Assembly (NCBI RefSeq): GCF_032118995.1
Contig: NC_092653.1
Coordinates: 22,215,202-22,279,201, forward strand
Direction: 5' to 3'
Length of the DNA: 64,000 bases
From: Asterias amurensis
Lineage: Eukaryota > Echinodermata > Asteroidea > Forcipulatida > Asteriidae
In this document: positions 21,901 through 59,561 of the stretch, one piece after another
Position numbering within the stretch: position 1 is the first letter of the stretch
How the letters are laid out: the number at the start of each line of letters is the position of its first letter
The notes under the pieces: model-generated
The model's input: only the letters and a program-made list of their open reading frames with translations
Told to the model about the DNA's origin: nothing
Databases searched by the model: none
Made by a program: the position numbers and the translations under genes

Positions 21901-24118
21901 ACTCCATCGGGAGAATACAACCCCAAGCTGCTAAGTTAGCAGTATTAAGCACAAAGGGGTTAGTCCAAAACAATACTGCCTCAGCCCTCTCAGGTTCACA
22001 TTTATATACCTGGGTGTAGAGAAGCAGTTATGGTCAAGTGATTTGGGTAATGATACAAGTGTCATGACCAGGAATTCAAACCCAAACTCTGAATTGATCA
22101 AAACTACCAAAAGTCGAGTCCGATGCAGTGATGGGACAAGCACCCTGAATCTCATCTGGAAAAAACTATTTTTGAGTTAGGCTGTTTTGCCATGGAAGGG
22201 CCACTGGCTACATGTATACTGCTCCATATGTCTATAACATAATATTGTACCCTTGCTCAGGTCTTCTTGTATCTCTGCAATGCCTCTGCAATGTTCCACC
22301 ATCGCCACGGCCATGTCTGCTGCCCTCTGTGGGATGAAACTTCCCTCTGTATCAACGTATATCGCTTCTCCTTCAACACCTCCGAAAAACTGTGGTATCT
22401 GTACATCGACCGCAAGCTGGATACTAAATCAATAAACAAGTTAAATATCTTCAATATAGTAAAAGGAAAAAAAATCAAACACTTTCAATCTTGGCTGTGC
22501 TCCGTGGTCATAATGGGTTGATGTGGCTGGCAGCTGAATGCGCCCTTACATGCCTGCTTCTCGAACACGTTGTAGCCGCGTCCTTCGCAATTTAGCTCTA
22601 GCTGCGAGTAAGGACGATTAGCCCCCGAAATGATTTAAACTGGCAGCATCAAAATTATTAAATTATTGAATTGATAGTCTTTAGAGGGAAAATATATTGT
22701 TTGGTAATCTCTCTCAAATTTAATGGCAATTACAACTGCTGGTTAGAGATCCTACAGCAGCTTTCGATAGTATACAGCATTTTGAGAAACATTTCACTTA
22801 GAAGTTACATGTAAATGTATAAAGACATGAAAGATATCAGTTTTTATGACCCAAATTTTGAATCTGAGAAGCACTACCGTCAGAAATGCTTCTCACATTG
22901 TGAATTCCTTTTAGGGATCATTCTACCTGCAGGGACATTATATATATATACTCCGCGATATAAACACACCAAATTTTTCACATGTTAGTTTATTGAACAA
23001 CAGTATACTTTGCCTTCAGAATTCATGATTACGTGTTGATTTCACTTCAGGCAAATAGCTAGGCCTACACAACTAGATTTCAAAATGCTGTGGTATAAAT
23101 AAATAGTATGGGTTTTACAATTTTATGACTTTCACCATGTCTGTGTCTTCCCCACGCCAGGGGCCCCACAAATCTCTGTTATCTTGCTAAGAGGGACACC
23201 CCCTCCCAACATCTCGTCCAAGTCTTCACAGAATGTAACGATGGCAGGGGATGCCTTCTCATATTGTAGCATTTCTAAAGCTGTCACTGTCCTCTTATTG
23301 CTCTCTGGATGGTGATGCTGGTTCCCCACTAAAGATGTACTGCTGCTAGGGGTACGTGAGTTGGGCGTTGACGATACAGATGTTGCGCTTCTCACCATTG
23401 TTAACACATCTAAGGCTTCTTCTTTGGAAATCCCAATTTCTAGAAGAAGAAAAAATATTACCATTCATGAAAATATTAATAAAGTATAACTGAACTATCA
23501 TTAAAACAATACTTTTTTCTTTTGCATATTTGGGGAAGCATTGCATGGATCGTGCAACAGTTGTAACATTAAATGTAGAATTTCATTTTGTTTTAACTTA
23601 CAAAATATGCATCACCATATAGAATAGGCCTATAATTTTAATAGTTATCTAATCAGTACATCATGACAAATGCAGACATTTTGCATGGGAATATAATTAG
23701 GGAATTTAAAATTAGCCCAACTTGTGTTGTGTGGCTTGTAAATTTTGACATAGCCGGTAGGCGATACACAAAAGTTAGTAAGTAGGCTTCACGTTGGGAA
23801 AATAAAGTCTGAAATTCAAAATTAATCCAAGTCGCCCCAAACAGTCACAATTATAATATAAACAAATGAATACACACTGGCACTGTAGTACTGCCTTATT
23901 CAAATACACCACGCCATATCGTAACTGGTTAACGCAAAACTCTGCACAATTCTACCTCTGCTCAACTCAGTCGGTTTCATTTCGAAAACATCTTCCACCA
24001 TTCCGAAACCATTGTCCTTTAATTTCGCCCTTATCGGTGGAGGAAATGGAAAGCTTCCCAATTCACGATGCATCACTTGATTTAAGCTCCAAAATTGATA
24101 AAATACGTCTATTTCCAA
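18916..24118 (-). CDS. RAD51C: DNA repair protein RAD51 homolog 3 (RAD51C), complete
   Basis: Eight exons on the minus strand: 24118-23956, 23439-23136, 22423-22251, 21472-21339, 21107-20976, 20645-20518, 19615-19555, 19059-18916. They total 1239 nt (412 aa), with all junctions in phase and GT/AG ends. RAD51C is a RecA-fold ATPase of the BCDX2 and CX3 paralog complexes in homologous recombination. Visible marks: N-terminal [18 protein letters not shown] and [19 protein letters not shown]; Walker A GAPGVGKT (146-153); [16 protein letters not shown]; Walker B LVVVD (261-265); [52 protein letters not shown]-terminal basic NLS RKRSR (403-407), as in vertebrates. Compared with the 376-aa human protein it has a longer Ser/Thr/His linker in exon 2 and a longer tail. 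The start could be M1 or the internal Met before HREL at 24071-24073. Confidence 0.96.
19170..19402 (-). mobile_element. S2 SINE fragment, minus strand
   Basis: Shares 'gggctgaaacagggttaccc' and 'gtaggcatgggtatcatcc' phrases with S2. The tRNA-like end near 19335-19402 is degraded ('aattcaaacccacactga', 'ctgcccggccacgac'). It lies in RAD51C intron 7. Confidence 0.65.
19654..19803. mobile_element. Hairpin MITE (M6)
   Basis: Inverted ends GGGAGACTTTCAGGACGCTT and CGCCTCAAAGTCTCCC, with TGGCAGCAGACTTACC and GGTAAGTCTGCTGCCA inside. A degraded second copy lies at 47024-47142. This copy ends 39 bp upstream of RAD51C exon 7 (on the minus strand). Confidence 0.75.
20011..20427 (+). mobile_element. 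S1 SINE, full length
   Basis: Nearly identical to 9880-10290: tRNA-like head AGTGTCGTGGCCGAGCGGTT, B box GGGTTCGAATCCCC, and a tail GACTTCGATATTATTATTAT. It lies in RAD51C intron 6, antisense to the gene. Confidence 0.9.
20785..20945. repeat. Dispersed repeat shared with the ERCC6L 3' UTR
   Basis: Phrases 'actcacacctgttatct', 'attaactgctcat' and 'aatgaccta' recur in the same order at 54800-54912. The family is not recognised. It lies in RAD51C intron 5. Confidence 0.5.
21630..21914. mobile_element. TIR MITE in RAD51C intron 3
   Basis: Inverted arms of about 70 bp: TTTTGTCAAGGCCTTCGTGG and GGACAGCTTCGTGGAGCCGC at the left; CCACGAAGGGCTTGACAAAA and GCGGCTCTGCGAAGCTGTCC at the right. About 110 bp lie between them. 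The GC-rich arms explain the open frames on both strands here. Confidence 0.8.
22660..22925. repeat. Dispersed repeat R2, copy 1
   Basis: Shares 'cagcattttgagaaacatttcactta', 'atatcagtttttat' and 'gagaagcactaccgtcagaaa' with 55195-55365 and with 56590-57020, where it is split by an M1 copy. Unknown family. Confidence 0.55.
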
Positions 24119-24326: not shown

Positions 24327-24335
24327 GTGCATCTT
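24327..24335. repeat. Left target-site duplication of the foldback element
   Basis: GTGCATCTT lies directly before the element's first bases GGTGGACAC and is repeated exactly at 29664-29672. Confidence 0.9.
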
Positions 24336-24499
24336 GGTGGACACTTATTCTCAAACGTTTGGGGTTCATTGGTACACACTATTAGTATCCGAAGTAATAA
24401 GGCTACACTAAACTGGCAGCAACAGTCCTTACACTTCCCACGATTGGCCGTGTACACAACACAGCGTATAATGAACACGCACGCTAAGTGCGTATAAAG

Positions 24500-27300
24500 A
24501 CCCCACTAATATACCCTTCACAGAACCCGTCCTCATAGTAATTAAACCTCGACGGAATTTCTTCAAATTTTTAGAATGTATTAATGAAGAATGTAGCTTA
24601 ATAATTAATATTTTTTCATATTTTTCCTATGTATAGTTGTCAACTTATTCAAAGTTAAAGTCATCTCAAACGTTTGGGGCTCATCGATTTCCAAGTACCG
24701 CCAATACAGCGTATAGTTAACAGGCACGCTGACTGCATGAAAAGACCCCACTAATATACCCTTCACAGAACCCGTCCTCATAGTAATTAAACCTCGACGG
24801 AATTTCTTCAAATTTTTAGAATGTATTAATGAAGAATGTAGCTTAATAATTAATATTTTTTCATATTTTTCCTATGTATAGTTGTCAACTTATTCAAAGT
24901 TAAAGTCATCTCAAACGTTTGGGGCTCATCGATTTCCAAGTACCGCCAATACAGCGTATAGTTAACAGGCACGCTGACTGCATGAAAAGACCCCACTAAT
25001 ATACCCTTCACAGAACCCGTCCTCATAGTAATTAAACCTCGACGGAATTTCTTCAAATTTTTAGAATCTATTAATGAAGAATGTAGCTTAATAATTAATA
25101 TTTTTTCATATTTTTCCTATGTATAGTTGTCAACTTATTCAAAGTTAAAGTCATCTCAAACGTTTGGGGCTCATCGATTTCCAAGTACCGCCAATACAGC
25201 GTATAGTTAACAGGCACGCTGACTGCATGAAAAGACCCCACTAATATACCCTTCACAGAACCCGTCCTCATAGTAATTAAACCTCGACGGAATTTCTTCA
25301 AATTTTTAGAATCTATTAATGAAGAATGTAGCTTAATAATTAATATTTTTTCATATTTTTCCTATGTATAGTTGTCAACTTATTCAAAGTTAAAGTCATC
25401 TCAAACGTTTGGGGCTCATCGATTTCCAAGTACCGCCAATACAGCGTATAGTTAACAGGCACGCTGACTGCATGAAAAGACCCCACTAATATACCCTTCA
25501 CAGAACCCGTCCCCAACGTATTTAAACCCCGGTAGAATTTCTTCAAAGTTTTAGAATCTATTAATGAAGAATGTAGCTTAATAATTAATATTTTTTCATA
25601 TTTTTCCTATGTATAGTTGTCAACTTATTCAAAGTTAAAGTCATCTCAAACGTTTGGGGCTCATCGATTTCCAAGTACCGCCAATACAGCGTATAGTTAA
25701 CAGGCACGCTGACTGCATGAAAAGACCCCACTAATATACCCTTCACAGAACCCGTCCCCAACGTATTTAAACCCCGGTAGAATTTCTTCAAAGTTTTAGA
25801 ATCTATTAATGAAGAATGTAGCTTAATAATTAATATTTTTTCATATTTTTCCTATGTATAGTTGTCAACTTATTCAAAGTTAAAGTCATCTCAAACGTTT
25901 GGGGCTCATCGATTTCCAAGTACCGCCAATACAGCGTATAGTTAACAGGCACGCTGACTGCATGAAAAGACCCCACTAATATACCCTTCACAGAACCCGT
26001 CCCCAACGTATTTAAACCCCGGTAGAATTTCTTCAAAGTTTTAGAATCTATTAATGAAGAATGTAGCTTAATAATTAATATTTTTTCATATTTTTCCTAT
26101 GTATAGTTGTCAACTTATTCAAAGTTAAAGTCATCTCAAACGTTTGGGGCTCATCGATTTCCAAGTACCGCCAATACAGCGTATAGTTAACAGGCACGCT
26201 GACTGCATGAAAAGACCCCACTAATATACCCTTCACAGAACCCGTCCCCAACGTATTTAAACCCCGGTAGAATTTCTTCAAAGTTTTAGAATCTATTAAT
26301 GAAGAATGTAGCTTAATAATTAATATTTTTTCATATTTTTCCTATGTATAGTTGTCAACTAATTCAAAGTTAAAGTCATCTCAAACGTTTGGGGCTCATC
26401 GATTTCCTAGTACCGCCAATACAGCGTATAGTTAACAGGCACGCTGACTGCATGAAAAGACCCCACTAATATACCCTTCACAGAACCCGTCCTCATAGTA
26501 ATTAAACCTCGACGGAATTTCTTCAAATTTTTAGAATCTATTAATGAAGAATGTAGCTTAATAATTAATATTTTTTCATATTTTTCCTATGTATAGTTGT
26601 CAACTAATTCAAAGTTAAAGTCATCTCAAACGTTTGGGGCTCATCGATTTCCTAGTACCGCCAATACAGCGTATAGTTAACAGGCACGCTGACTGCATGA
26701 AAAGACCCCAATAATAAACCCTTCACAGAACCCGTCCTCAGAGTAATTAAACCCCGGTAGAATTATTTCAAATTTTTAGAATCTTTTATTGAGGAATGAA
26801 GCTTAATAAATAATATTTTTCATATTTTTCCTATGTATAATTGTCAACTTATTCAAAGTTAAAGTCATCTCAAACGTTTGGGGCTCATCGATTTCCAGTA
26901 CCGTCAATATAGCGTATAGTCAACACGCACGCTAACTGCATGAAAAGACCGCACTAATATACCCTTCACAGAACCCGTCCTCAAAGTATTTAAACCCCAA
27001 TAGAATTCCTTCAAAGTTTTAGAATCTATAAATGAAGAATGTAGCTTAATAAATATTATTTTTTCATATTTTTCCTATGTATAATTGTCAACTTATTCAA
27101 AGTTAAAGTCATCTCAAACGTTTGGGGCTCATCGATTTCCAAGTACCGCCAACACAGCGTATAGTCAACAAGCACGCTGACTGTAATAACAGATCCCACT
27201 ATTATACCCTTCACAGAACCTATCCTCATAGTATTTAAACCTCGACGGAATTTCTTCAAATTTTTAGAATCTATTGTTGAGGAATGTAGCTTAGTACATA
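24500..27300 (-). repeat. Left arm: eleven 245-bp tandem units
   Basis: Units recur at exactly 245 bp (for example the ATTTTTTCATATTTTTCCTA phrase at 24609, 24854, 25099 and onwards). Units 1-3 are almost identical to each other, and units 4-7 share a second version of the 'cccgtccccaacgtatttaaacc' segment. Units near the inner end (from about 26740) are more diverged. Each unit has a 68-codon open frame on the minus strand, but the 245-bp length is not a multiple of three and the frame stops in every unit. Confidence 0.95.
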
Positions 27301-27331
27301 ATTTTTTTCATTTGGGGCTCATCGATTTCCG

Positions 27332-28125
27332 TGTACACAGGGGGCTATTTTCACTCGTGTCACCTAAGAGCTTCAACTTTCCGAAAACTTTGACCAGCCG
27401 TCTTCAAAAGTTGAAATATCGTCATCGGCCGCAGTAAGCACAAGCATAACACTTATACAGTCGATTCGATATCTTAAAAGCACATCATTATTCTGATGGA
27501 TGAAAACAAAGTGTCAACGCTTGAACAGTCTTTTGTGGGCCAACAAAATGAAAAAGAGAGGAGGATTAACTAATAATGCAGCGTTCTTACTTTGTATGAT
27601 TCAATGTATACATTGAAAAAAAAAAAATGATTAAGAAAATATTGAAAAAAGCGTTCACATTATTATTGTTTTTTATTTTGTTTCTATTATATTTTATGAA
27701 AAATTTCCAGACTTCCACAACATTTTTGGAAACAACTATTTCTTTGAGGGGCTTGTATTGAAATGAACTTCTTAAAAATTAGGCTTAAGACTAATACAAC
27801 ATTATAAGGTTTTTATATAAATACGAATCCTATATTTTACCTAATGTTTACAGGTAAACAAAAAATAATGGGATGCTTTCAAGATTTGTTTTCATATGGT
27901 GCTAAAACATTTCGTTAAAATAGCTATAGTGTCCGCTAGTCACACGTCCTCCACGAAGGCGGTGTGGACCGTCAAATATTGATAATTTTAAAATGCAAGC
28001 TTACGAAGTTGCAACATTACAGGATTCTCCATTTTCCTTACAGATACCAGTACTTGACAGACGTCTTGGTTTTAGAAGCCATAAAGCATCTTTTTCACAA
28101 GGTTGCAGTCTTGACGTCTCTGACC
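27332..28125. other. Foldback spacer
   Basis: AT-rich sequence unlike the arms, with poly-A/T runs and no open frame longer than about 80 codons. I see no transposase motif, tRNA-like head or other repeat of this window in it. Confidence 0.7.
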
Positions 28126-29500
28126 AGAAATGCAGTCAGCGTGCCTGTTGACTATACGCTGTTTTGCGGTACTTGGAAATCGATGAGCCCCAAACGTTTG
28201 AGATGACTTTAACTTTGAATAAGTTGACAATTATACTTAGGAAAAATATAAAAAAATATTATTTATAAAGCTTCATTCCTCAATAATAGATCCTACAAAT
28301 TTAAAGAAATTCTATTGAGGTTTAAATACTTTGAGGACGGATTCTGTGAAGGGTATAATAGTGGGGTCTTTTCATGCAGTCAGCGTGCCTGTTGACTATA
28401 CGCTGTTTTGCGGTACTTGGAAATCGATGAGCCCCAAACGTTTGAGATGACTTTAACTTTGAATTAGTTGACAACTATACATAGGAAAAATATGAAAAAA
28501 TATTATTTATTAAGCTTCATTCCTCAATAAAAGATTCTAAAACTTTGAAGAAATTCTATTGAGGTTTAAATACTTTGAGGACGGATTCTGTGAAGGGTAA
28601 AATAGTGGGGTGTTTTTATGCAGTTAGCGTGCCTGTTAACTATACGCTGTATTGGCGGTACTGGGAAATCGATGAGCCCCAAACGTTTGAGATGACTTTA
28701 ACTTTGAATAAGTTGACAACTATACATAGGAAAAATATGAAAAAATATTATTTATTAAGCTTCATTCCTCAATAAAAGATTCTAAAAATTTGAAGAAATT
28801 CTACCGGGGTTTAATTACTCTGAGGATGTGTTCGGTGAAGGGTATAATAGTGGGGTGTTTTTATGCAGTTAGCGTGCCTGTTAACTATACGCTGTATTGG
28901 CGGTACTGGGAAATCGATGAGCCCCAAACGTTTGAGATGACTTTAACTTTGAATAAGTTGACAACTGTACATAGGAAAAATATGAAAAAATATTATTTAT
29001 TAAGCTACATTCTTCATTAATAGATTCTGAACATTTGAAGAAATTATACCGAGGTTTAAATACTATGAGGACGGGTTTTGTGAAGGGTATAATAGTGGGG
29101 ATCTGTTCTTTCACCGCGGAGCCGTGCTGGCGCCCTCTACTGGCTGATATGTGTAACATCGCACTGTGACTGTTGCATGAAAGGCAGACAAATAGGCAGC
29201 GCCTAACGACTTGTCATCAAGTCTACTGGCTGATTGGCACGCACGAATGTTACAGTATTCACTATACGCTGTATTGGCGGTACTTGGAAGTCGATGAGCC
29301 CCAAACGTTTGAGATGACTTTAACTTTGAATAAGTTGACAACTATACATAGGAAAAAGCTGAAAACAGACTATTTATTAAGCTACATTCGTCATTAATAC
29401 ATTCTAAAAATTTGAAGAAATTCCGTCGAGGGTTAAATATTATGAGGTTGGGTTATGTGAAGGGTAATAGTGGGGTCTGTTCTTGCAGTCAGCGTGCCTG
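28126..29500 (+). repeat. Right arm: six inverted 245-bp units with an inserted segment
   Basis: The CGATGAGCCCCAAACGTTTG phrase recurs at 28181, 28425, 28670, 28915 and 29292 (a diverged form near 29532). Spacing is 244-245 bp except for the 377-bp gap before 29292, so about 132 bp of foreign sequence lies near 29097-29262. There the phrase 'tctactggctgat' occurs twice. Confidence 0.9.
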
Positions 29501-29663
29501 TTGACTACACGCTGTATTCTGACACGGAAATCGATGGGCCCCCAAACGTTTTAGTTGGGACTAGGTGAAGTTTAGCAATAACACGGGACATGGTCAATAT
29601 TTCCTTCGGATACTTATTAGTGTGTACCAATGAACCCCAAACGTTTGAGAATAAGTGTCCACC

Positions 29664-29672
29664 GTGCATCTT
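29664..29672. repeat. Right target-site duplication of the foldback element
   Basis: GTGCATCTT, identical to 24327-24335. Deleting the element and one copy restores a continuous sequence around GTGCATCTT. Confidence 0.9.
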
Positions 29673-30318
29673 TTGCTGCAAACATTTGAGGTAAATATCT
29701 CTTGATAATCCATTAGCATTAGACAAGATTATATCATATTTAGGTATAGTTATCAGTAAATAAAAGCTGGTAGATGTTTCACTTGAAGTAGACTAGATAA
29801 TCTTGTCAAATTTTATCGGATTGCAGTCGTGTCGTGGTTCATAAATTATAGTTGTGACTTGTTATTTTTTGTTAGTTGTGGGGGGAATGTTGTGTTGACG
29901 AATTATTTTGAATAGACGATGGCAACTTGTAGTGGCAGTGCCAGTGGAGTGGGTCATGGATTCAGTAGAGGAGAGTGCTTTTTACATGGAGGTAGTCCAA
30001 GTTACCTGCCACCACTAGTTCATCCATTTTACATAAAGGAATATCTCTTTTGTATATAACTTAATATAAGTCTATTTAATTTATTTTTACTCAACAGTTT
30101 TGTAAATTTATAATTTATTTTATATTTCACAAATGAAAAAGTGACATACAGAAACTTTTCCCAAAAGTCTGACTGACCAATGCTTACCATCATCATACAG
30201 GGCATGGCGCTAACAAAGAAGTCTTTGTATAAACTGATGATGCGATAAACTCACCTGAGCTGCTTAAAAGATAGTGGCTGTCAGAGTCAGACTCAAGAGG
30301 GGTGAGGAATGGAATACT

Positions 30319-30905
30319 GGACACTTCGGCACCTTGCAAACTCGGCACCAGCAAACTCGGCACCTCTCAAACTCGGCGGAAAAGTTTTCGTATAGCGCCA
30401 CCACTTTTTCATTCGAAATAAAATAATATAGTATCTAATTTACCTGATTGATATATCTCTTTTTGTAAAAATGAGTGAAAATGTGGTGGCGCCATACGGA
30501 AAGTTATCCAACTCGGCACCCACAACCTCGGCACCTTGCAAACTCGGCACCCACAAACTCGGCACATGCACAACTACAAACTCGGCACCTGGTTGAAAAC
30601 GCTCAATCTGCCACGGTTACAAACTCGGCACCCAGTTAGAAATAGAAATAAATCCCGATCCTCGTCGTGTGTATCGACGGGTTCGACGTCGTACCGACGA
30701 TACATACCATGTATTTTCACTGTCATGGTGAGGTCGCCCTTTTCAAATATCTGTATCAAAATAATTAATATTTATTTGTGTAAACTTTTGAAGACCGAGT
30801 CGAAACTACGTAATTTCGATGTCCAAGTATTTTTTTGGGAACGTTTACACAAAACACGAGGTGCCGAGTTTGCTGGTGCCGAGTTTGCAAGGTGCCGAAG
30901 TGTCC
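30319..30905. mobile_element. 587-bp TIR element with CTCGGCACC sub-repeats
   Basis: Perfect 48-bp terminal inverted repeats: 30319-30366 (starts GGACACTTCGGCACCTTGCA) and 30858-30905. The word AAACTCGGCACC or a one-base variant recurs about eight times on the left side and in inverted form in the right end. Such sub-terminal repeats in DNA transposons are usually transposase-binding sites. The interior open frame (30536-30952) crosses the repeats and looks non-coding. A 132-bp hAT-like MITE sits inside it. I found no clear target duplication. The right end is only 146 bp from the ERCC6L ATG. Confidence 0.8.
30378..30509 (-). mobile_element. hAT-like MITE (M3) nested in the CTCGGCACC element
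   Basis: 132 bp, starting GGAAAAGTTTTCG and ending GGAAAGTTATCC, with GCGCCACCACTTTTTCATTC and its complement as arms. AACTCGGC lies on both sides (30370-30377 and 30510-30517), a fitting 8-bp duplication, although that word is also part of the host element's sub-repeat. Confidence 0.85.
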
Positions 30906-31051
30906 GGTACCCGAGGAATGTAAACTGCAAGTGCAAACTAATAATAATATAAATTTGTGATTTTTTTTCAGATTTTGCGGCTTTGCACTTGGAATGAAGT
31001 GTTCTAAACTTATCTGAAATCATTTGTTGAGGGAATTTAACTGAAAACAAA

Positions 31052-43000: not shown

Positions 43001-46000
43001 CTTTTCAAACCTAAGAAGTCTCCTGATGAATTCTGAAAATCTACTCTGCGGTACAGAAGTCTCCCAAATTTTCCAAAAATTTATTCTGCGATAGTAGAAC
43101 ATATCAAGACAAGTTCTCAAAAGAACATAACCTTCCCAGCAAGTAGATATATACACATGGTATTGAAAGCATGTTGTTAAAGACAGTGGACACTATTGTT
43201 AATTGTCAAAGACAAGTCTTCTCACTTGGTGTGTCTAAACATATGCATAAAATAACAAACCTGTGAAAATTTGAGCTCAATTGGTTGTTGAAGTTGCGAG
43301 ATATGAATGAAATAAAATACACCCTTGTCACACAAAGTTGTGTGCTTTCAGATGCTTGATTTCGAGACCTCAAATTCTAAACTTGAGGTCTTGAAATCAA
43401 ATTCGTGGAAAATTACTTCTTTCTCGAAAACTACGTCACTTCAGAGGGAGCCGTTTCTCACAATGTTTTATACTATCAACCTCTCCCCATTACTCGTTAC
43501 CAAGTGAGGTTTTATGCTGATAATTATTTTGAGTAATTACCAATAGTGTCCACTGCCTTTAAACTCACTTCTACACAGATGATCCAAGTTGGAACCCAGC
43601 CACTGACAGCCAAGCTGTTGATCGTGTTTATCGTATCGGTCAGAAACGCTCAGTGGTCATCTATCGTCTCATCTCATGTGGTACAGTGGAGGAGAAGATT
43701 TATAGGAGGCAGATCTTTAAGGACTCATTGACCAAACAAGCTACGGGATCCTCCAAAAATCCATATCGGTAAGAAAGACAAATTGGTCTGAGCGCATTTT
43801 GTCAAAGCACTTTTGACAATTTTCTTTATTTTCAAGATACAATAATGTTAACGGCGCATTTTGTATTCTCACTTAGTCTGTCCCAACATATGCATAATTA
43901 AAAAATAATGAACACTCCTTGCACAAATTTGTGCGCTTTCAGATGCCTGACAAAGGCTTGAAAGCCAAAGCCTTTCTCAGATTCAAATATTTTAGTGAGA
44001 AACTACCTCTTTCTCAAAAACTTCAGAGGGAGCCATTTCTCACTTGTTGGTACAATTAAACTTTCTGTGTGAATCTCTTTTGAGAGGAGTGTTACACCTG
44101 TTTCAGACAGGCGAGCCAGAGTCGCACCGAACCAAATAGATTAGGAGCGACTCTAGGTCAACCCAAATAACTTTTTGTTTCGGACAGGCGAACTTAACAT
44201 AATATTTACAGTGGCTCGGCTCATGACAAGTTCAACGTCTAAAACCAAGGCGCTCCAGAGTCGTTCCGAGCGACTGCAACAGTCGATCTTTCGACTTCTG
44301 CAAATCCAGTCGCGTCTAACTGTTTCAGGCGCCAAACTTTTCATGTACTTAATTCAGAATTTGGTTTGGCGCAGCTCTGGAGCCCCTGTCTGGTGTTAGC
44401 TCTTCTGAAGATAAGCAGAGTTCAATGTTCAAAAAAAGACCACAGCAGCTCTTTTCTAAGCCAACACTCCAACCAAACGAGATTTACACTCGGTTGACCC
44501 TCACGCATTCTCAAAAATGCATCCCTGTCGAGTATTCTTTTGTTTTTTACTTTGTCCTTGTACTTACCATCCTCCACATAGACTTTGTACAACAAGTTGT
44601 TTGTAGAGCACCCCAGTCTTTAGAATTCCCATGGAGTCCTTTTATTTTTCCTTTTTTGTTTTGTCCTTGGTCTCCTTAAGGTATCGAATATTAGCACTTA
44701 GTATACTTGCTTCTTATTTTCCACACTATACGAAGCTTCAAACACCACTTAGAGAAGGGGTTCACCCCGGTGTTCCTGGCTGTGGCTGCTAAATGCGCCG
44801 TAGCATCTTGTAAACCCTTCTACAGTGCTACATAATTGGGTCTCAGAATTCATAACTTTCAATAACCTCTTTCTGTATAAATGTAAATACTAAGCGCCTT
44901 GAGTACCTTATTGGTAGATACGGGCGCTTTTAAAGGAACACGTTGCCTTGGATCGGACGAGTTGGTCTATAAAAAACGTGTGTAACCGTTTTTTATAAAA
45001 TGCGTATAGTTGGAAAGATGTTTTAAAAGTAGAATACAATGATCCAAACAAGTTTGCCTCGAAAATCGCGTGGTTTTCATTTCAATAATATTTACTGTGC
45101 GAACTAACACGGTCGGCCATTTATGGGAGTCAAAAACTTGACTCCCATAAATGGCCGACCGTGTTAGACGACGAGGTAAAAGGAAAACCGTGCAATTTCG
45201 AGGCATGTTTGTGTGGATCATTGTATTCTACTTTTACAAGATCTTTCTACCCATATGCATTTGATAACAAACGGTTACATACGCTTTTCAAAGACCAACT
45301 CGACCGATCCAAGGCAACGTGTTCCTTTAAGACTTTGATATTATTATATCTGATCTTCACTTATCATTCGTTTGATCACCAGCTACTTCTGCCGCCAAGA
45401 ACTACATGATCTGTTTATCCTGGATAACCCTCACTCATCCTCCACACAGCTACAGCTGCAGGATATGCACGCCGCCCAACGCAAGACAGATATTGAGCTT
45501 GATGAACATATTGCTTACCTCTACTCACTAGGTAATCAACTGCAAAACTCCTCTAAAGACCTTTCCATTGTTGATAAACAAACCGCGCTGGGCCCAATTT
45601 CATAGAGCTGCTTAAGCAAAAATTTTTGCTTAAGCAAAAAAATCTTTGCTTTGTAAAATCAGATTACTGGCCAAGACTCCACTCAATTGTTATGCTAAGT
45701 AAACAACAGCTAAATACCAGTCACAAGCAATGTATATGGCATGACATTTTTGCCAGTATCATGTATAAAATAAGCAAGCTATTTTCGTGCTTAAGCAAAT
45801 TTTTTGCTTAAGCAGCTCTATGAAATTGGGCCCTGGTTGGCATGGACGGCCGAATGTTAGCAAAACATTCAATCGTGTTAACAGATGTCCTGACCAAATT
45901 CAAAATTGTTTGCAAACTTTCAATTAAAGGCATTGTACACGTTTGGTAGTTGTCAAAGACCAGTGTTCTCACTTGGTGTATCCCATCATAAGCATTACAT

Positions 46001-59006: not shown

Positions 59007-59429
59007 GTTGGTTCTTTTGACATTTTGACAATTGTTGACATAATTTTAATTATTTGACGAAATATTTTATTACTACTGAAAAATTGACAAATTAATGTAG
59101 GTTTTCTACCAAATCTTTCTGTGTTACTCTTGTGTGTTTTCATCCTTCGTTGACATTTGATTGAATGCCCCAATGGTTAAAGAATGGTTAAAGTATCTAC
59201 ACTTCCCTTCCTTCATTGTAATTTACCGAACCGAACTGATATTATCACAGTGATTGATCACAATACTTCTTACTACACACTGTAGGCCTACATACATGTT
59301 TATAAAGCAAAACAACTAATTCATTGATATTTATTTTACAAAAACAAAATGACCAAAAATAGCTTGGCCCCAGAACTCTGCACTTACAGTTACACGCTGA
59401 AAAAGAGTTATGACTGCGGTACAATGTAT

Positions 59430-59561
59430 GGATAACTTTCTGTATGGCGCCACCACTTTTTCACTCATTTTTACAAAAAGGGAAATATCAATCAGGTAAA
59501 TTAGATACTATATTATTTTATTTCGAATGAAAAAGTGGTGGCGCCATACGGAAACTTTTCC
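59430..59561 (+). mobile_element. hAT-like MITE (M3) with 8-bp duplication
   Basis: 132 bp, GGATAACTTTCTGTATGGCG to CGCCATACGGAAACTTTTCC. CAATGTAT lies at 59422-59429 and 59562-59569, exactly repeated. Confidence 0.92.

Follow-up and report, generated by a model that had tools for sequence, protein, structure and literature searches.

Known foldback elements with repeated arms

What the tandem repeats in the arms of foldback transposons are for is largely open, and an element in the genome of the sea star Asterias amurensis offers a concrete hypothesis. The element is 5328 bp long (G+C fraction 0.36) and occupies positions 24336–29663, as determined by script and by direct reading, of a 64,000-nucleotide stretch of contig NC_092653.1 (assembly GCF_032118995.1, positions 22,215,202 to 22,279,201, forward strand). 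We refer to this stretch as the window, and all coordinates are window positions.

Tetris of Drosophila virilis is described as a nonautonomous foldback element with units of ~220 bp in its terminal inverted repeats (TIRs), target-site duplications (TSDs) of 8 to 10 bp, and a noncoding middle. Its account also reports 37 bp (~80% alike) common to the terminal domain and the unit, and two alleles that are one unit apart (PMC4079207). Judged by that description, the sea star element resembles Tetris in being a foldback with long tandem units in its TIRs and a stretch shared between terminus and unit. It differs in that the outer domain of Tetris reaches 866 bp, compared with ~120 bp outside the array here, and in having 11 + 5 intact units with a shared stretch identical at 20/21 positions instead of 37 bp at ~80%. 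Rehavkus-1_TC of Tribolium is presented as having inverted termini in which 164-bp units follow one another, mostly in runs of five and eight (PMC10218199), and the TSD given for Rehavkus is 9 bp (PMC6446971). Again by description, the 9-bp TSD class and the tandem units within inverted termini are common to both, whereas Rehavkus-1_TC is 9.5 kb long and Rehavkus has a PHD-finger transposase, of which none was seen here. Galileo, assigned to the P superfamily, likewise has long TIRs with internal tandem repeats, which are reported to carry extra functional transposase-binding sites (PMC3688188); unlike the present element, it is described with a P-type transposase containing a THAP domain. In root-knot nematodes, the account of the foldback element Tm1 gives composite TIRs, mostly 9-bp TSDs, and a Phantom-type source among the Mutator-like elements (MULEs). 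Tm1 is similar in its TSDs, its unequal repeat numbers, and the existence of noncoding copies, and dissimilar in its 13–15-bp units and its size, ~1–2.6 kb for the elements described (PMC3169594).

The initial annotation of this DNA had likened the element to Drosophila FB and sea urchin TU, and for the foldback layout this likeness holds. Both FB and TU have short repeat units (15 bp in TU, with 8-bp duplications), and they were set aside as closest relatives on unit length; by anatomy, Tetris and Rehavkus-1_TC are closest. Galileo duplicates 7 bp, not 9, and with a TSD of 9 bp here versus 7 or 8 bp, membership in Galileo or the P superfamily was rejected.

Boundaries and architecture

The element consists of the following parts.

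24327..24335, no strand: left copy of the TSD, GTGCATCTT
24336..24395, + strand: left TIR, ~60 bp (46 exact), with the core at 24350–24369
24457..27311, + strand: left arm of tandem 245-bp units, 11 with core (11.7 copies by Tandem Repeats Finder)
27312..28112, no strand: middle domain, 801 bp, AT-rich (G+C fraction 0.34), edges approximate
28130..29100, − strand: inner four units of the right arm, R5, R4, R3, and R2 in window order (4.0 copies by Tandem Repeats Finder)
29101..29240, no strand: sequence between R2 and R1 that does not resemble the units, edges approximate
29241..29484, − strand: outermost right unit R1, edges approximate
29603..29663, − strand: right TIR, ~61 bp, with the core at 29630–29649
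29664..29672, no strand: right copy of the TSD, GTGCATCTT

This is a real and well-bounded element, a further member of an already known foldback kind. The 9-bp target duplication that had been claimed is exact: GTGCATCTT occurs just twice in the window and not at all on the other strand, 0.25 copies being expected on one strand, and the chance of a 9/9 match at two fixed flanking sites is ~6e-6 given the base composition. The outer ends, also said to be exact inverted copies, are identical over 46 bp and agree at 58/61 of the first 61 alignment columns. Inward of these termini, segments of ~60–75 bp (cut by eye) differ strongly between the two ends, with 39/87 columns aligning, gaps included. 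Such a contrast between alike outer ~60 bp and a diverged adjoining stretch is expected if the ends are needed. The element has no copies elsewhere in the window (blastn, E 1e-3).

Between the termini, two facing arrays of 245-bp units can pair over up to 694 nt with 93% complementarity, which bears out the description of a 5.3-kb foldback transposon with opposed arrays. As in other foldback elements, a middle domain is flanked by long inverted arms that contain tandem repeats, and the unit numbers of the arms are unequal (11 versus 5 units with a conserved core). The eleven left units agree with the earlier count; the six given for the right arm do not, since five core-bearing units were counted there. 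Partial or degenerate unit stretches near 24445, 27304, and 29540 may explain the sixth. The stretch between R2 and R1 adds ~130 bp, giving a spacing of 377 instead of 245; it has no copy elsewhere in the window and, by eye, no duplication at its edges. For the middle domain, no protein family was found, and no copy elsewhere in the window.

The absence of a recognizable transposase was upheld. None of the 36 open reading frames (ORFs) of at least 45 aa that overlap the element has a Pfam match reaching the curated cut-off, and a hidden transposase was rejected on this result. The enzymes that would mark the candidate sources, a MULE-type DDE transposase for MULEs, a PHD-finger transposase for Rehavkus, and an IS1595-type DDE transposase for Merlin, were not recognized among these ORFs. 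Among the weak listings below cut-off, none is a transposase; the best (E 0.028) is to the HVO_2833 C-terminal domain in an ORF that lies mostly outside the element, and the others range from 0.058 to 0.9. Rfam at gathering scores gave no match in the element. Our preferred interpretation is that the locus probably represents a single insertion of a nonautonomous foldback DNA transposon mobilized in trans, most likely by a source of the MULE/Rehavkus type.

A core common to termini and units

What this element adds to the known cases is an invariant 41-bp block together with a core common to the ends. The 20-bp core, CTCAAACGTTTGGGG(C/T)TCAT, also written CTCAAACGTTTGGGGYTCAT, contains the palindrome CAAACGTTTG and begins at base 15 from both element ends. 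There are 18 exact cores, two in the termini and one in each of 16 units. Twelve are on the + strand in the left part and six on the − strand in the right part, so that each points inward from its own end. The internal copies are as follows.

24665..24684, + strand: internal core CTCAAACGTTTGGGGCTCAT, one of 16
Starts at 24910, 25155, 25400, 25645, 25890, 26135, 26380, 26625, 26869, and 27113, + strand: other left internal cores
Starts at 28183, 28427, 28672, 28917, and 29294, − strand: right internal cores

No extra sites appear in the window when 3 mismatches are allowed, no core lies outside the element, and 100 shuffles gave a mean of 0.00 cores. When terminus and unit are aligned locally, the core is also the top match (20/21, score 37), compared with 24.5–25 for the largest of 500 shuffled scores for each end. 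Its position 16 is T in 2/2 ends (GGGGTTCAT) and C in 16/16 units (GGGGCTCAT).

In the alignment of the 16 units, from which the three degenerate places were left out, 169/260 columns are invariant. One invariant run of 41 bp (ATTCAAAGTTAAAGTCATCTCAAACGTTTGGGGCTCATCGA) surrounds the core and is fixed in 16/16 units, the mean number of variable columns per 41-column window being 12.0 (gapped columns counted as variable). With columns treated as independent, 0/20000 column shuffles reached a run of 41 columns, the largest being 30. The units were selected for carrying the core; the window holds no near copies with 1–3 mismatches, so none was lost thereby. Moreover, the run is unchanged in a reduced set of nine units (L1, L5, L10, L11, and R1–R5). 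From the fixed block with its core, we suggest that the units carry repeated sites for transposase binding, of the kind demonstrated biochemically in Galileo. According to Marzo et al. 2013, binding to the Foldback and Phantom repeats was then untested (PMC3688188). In this context, the element provides a small and exact candidate site, present 18 times, together with a single base that distinguishes end copies from internal ones. The exact core has 0 matches in viral_contigs and genome_contigs, which is little informative because these collections hold viruses and prokaryotes, and no motif or terminus strings were found in the literature.

History of the arms

Neighbors in the left arm have the same or almost the same sequence (L1=L2, L3=L4, L5=L6=L7). 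Using columns 0–221 or 2–221 of the 260, adjacent units from L1 to L9 show 0 to 9 differences per 220 positions, while L9/L10 and L10/L11 each show 19 per 218. Adjacent right units differ at 11 to 23 positions, and the left and right units compared differ by 5.5–14%. Over 24 informative columns, R1 is nearest to L1/L2 (6 differences), followed by L3/L4 (7), with 13–16 to L10 and L11. On the same columns, R3 is nearest to L10 (5 versus 13–15), and R4 and R5 are nearest to L11 (10 and 8), L10 being next best (12 and 10). In the whole-unit table, which covers seven of the eleven left units, R3 has 12 differences to L10, 15–16 to the outer units compared, and 21 to L11. When the right units are placed in mirror arrangement, the observed order is among the 2/120 with the lowest total distance (74; range 74–82). 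From this mirror order, it seems that a single ancestral array gave rise to both arms as inverted copies and that the left arm was expanded later; the support is modest.

Proposed mechanism and alternatives

The enzyme acting on the element in trans would be a DDE transposase, most likely of the MULE/Rehavkus type, encoded at another place in the genome. After binding the core CTCAAACGTTTGGGGYTCAT, both close to the two ends and at its 16 internal sites in the arms, this enzyme would pair the ends, cut at the outer GG/CC, and insert the element by means of a staggered cut of 9 bp. In the 245-bp arrays, the repeated binding sites would increase affinity or aid the pairing of the ends; this would account for a fixed core block in units that otherwise drift. 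Both arms would descend from one ancestral arm in inverted copies, and the left arm would later have grown through unequal exchange or a similar process. A further, tentative extension is that the arms are two-grade arrays, in which the end sites (GGGGTTCAT, 2/2) are cut and the internal sites (GGGGCTCAT, 16/16) are bound uncut. In this scenario, selection on the 41-bp block would drive array growth and enable a transposase that recognizes a short word to locate the element.

A MULE-type source is our best guess. The 9-bp TSD falls in the range of 8–11 bp given for MULEs (PMC6446971), among which Mutator and Rehavkus are counted (PMC13359780), and Rehavkus likewise combines a 9-bp TSD with tandem repeats within or close to the termini. 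The earlier suggestion that the duplication fits Mutator-like elements stands, but Merlin shares both the TSD size and the GG ends.

Several points weigh against the proposed reading. The evidence rests on one copy of the element, TSD length fails to separate MULE from Merlin, and Rehavkus is so far reported from arthropods and annelids only, according to the source cited for its TSD (PMC6446971). Cores are degenerate or deleted at three positions (near 24445, 27304, and 29540), implying that single sites are dispensable and their loss is tolerated. Local gene conversion could likewise fix the block, and constraint is not proven. As to the history of the arms, R2 has no standout left unit over the 24 informative columns, R4 in the whole-unit comparison is nearer to L11 by 1–3 differences (15 versus 16–18 to the others), and the mirror-order total of 74 versus 82 for the reverse order gives modest support.

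Among the alternatives, a captured satellite, or arrays homogenized by gene conversion, with a core devoid of binding function, is rather unlikely. The identical neighbors in the left arm indicate that homogenization or recent duplication does happen; however, the core is also found beyond the arrays, in both termini, and nine units that differ elsewhere still retain the invariant block. It is unlikely that the same architecture goes back to Merlin (IS1016-type) or another superfamily rather than to a MULE. This alternative draws on the GG start of the element and its 9-bp TSD, Merlin being described with GG ends, TIRs of 24–462 bp, and 8- or 9-bp TSDs, and on the account of one Merlin family whose two copies contain four and three tandem units of 163 bp (PMC8101967). 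An assembly artefact, a satellite array misjoined in inverted orientation, is very improbable: identical adjacent units may mean that the assembled copy number is wrong, but the outer ends have an exact TSD and TIR, the arms are of unequal length, the left and right units compared differ by 5.5–14%, and the middle domain has no second copy in the window, all of which speaks against a misjoin.

Neighboring genes

The element lies just upstream of RAD51C, which flanks it on the left.

23957..24073, − strand: first coding exon of RAD51C, outside the element, 39 codons, starting with the ATG at 24073; 3′ edge placed according to the protein match

The best match of this exon has an E value of 8.6e-7, and exon 2 (23135–23464, − strand) matches RAD51C chains (best E 2e-18). 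From the RAD51C ATG to the first base of the element there are 263 bp, in agreement with the ~0.2 kb of the initial annotation. On the other side, an SNF2-type gene lies on the + strand from about 31768 onward (Pfam SNF2, 8.9e-12), with ERCC-6 among its PDB matches; its N-terminal exon matches ERCC6L weakly (E 0.035). If the RAD51C and SNF2-type exons are first exons, the insertion would lie between two divergent genes. The further idea that hairpins formed by the element are linked to repair by RAD51C has nothing beyond position to support it; a functional link of this kind is speculation.

Other repeats in the window

A second, smaller foldback-like element lies 0.6 kb to the right, at 30304–30920 including its flanking repeats. 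It is 601 bp long (30312–30912), flanked by 8-bp direct repeats GAGGAATG (30304–30311 and 30913–30920), and has 52-nt arms with 98% complementarity. It contains 15–16-bp tandem repeats around AACTCGGCACC, eight on the + and two on the − strand with at most 1 mismatch, and its left end has TGGACACTT in common with the terminus of the large element. Inside it lies one copy of a 133-bp repeat (30378–30510), 95% alike to a second copy at 59429–59561; the 37-nt inverted ends are 84% and 89% complementary. The inner copy is flanked on either side by AACTCGGC; as evidence this is weak, since the word belongs to the tandem repeat there.

A family of ~388-bp inverted repeats has ten near full-length copies, with 85–100% identity to the query copy at 43177–43563; the others start at 2014, 6766, 17338, 17979, 33804, 37156, 57436, 61498, and 62612. 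One more copy (76%) is at 45924, and TTAA is found at both ends in 7/11. Many ends of this family and the ends of the large element contain GTGGACACT; the duplications differ. Finally, positions 945 to 1791 hold an array of telomere-type repeats resembling AACCCT, whose higher-order period is 213 bp.
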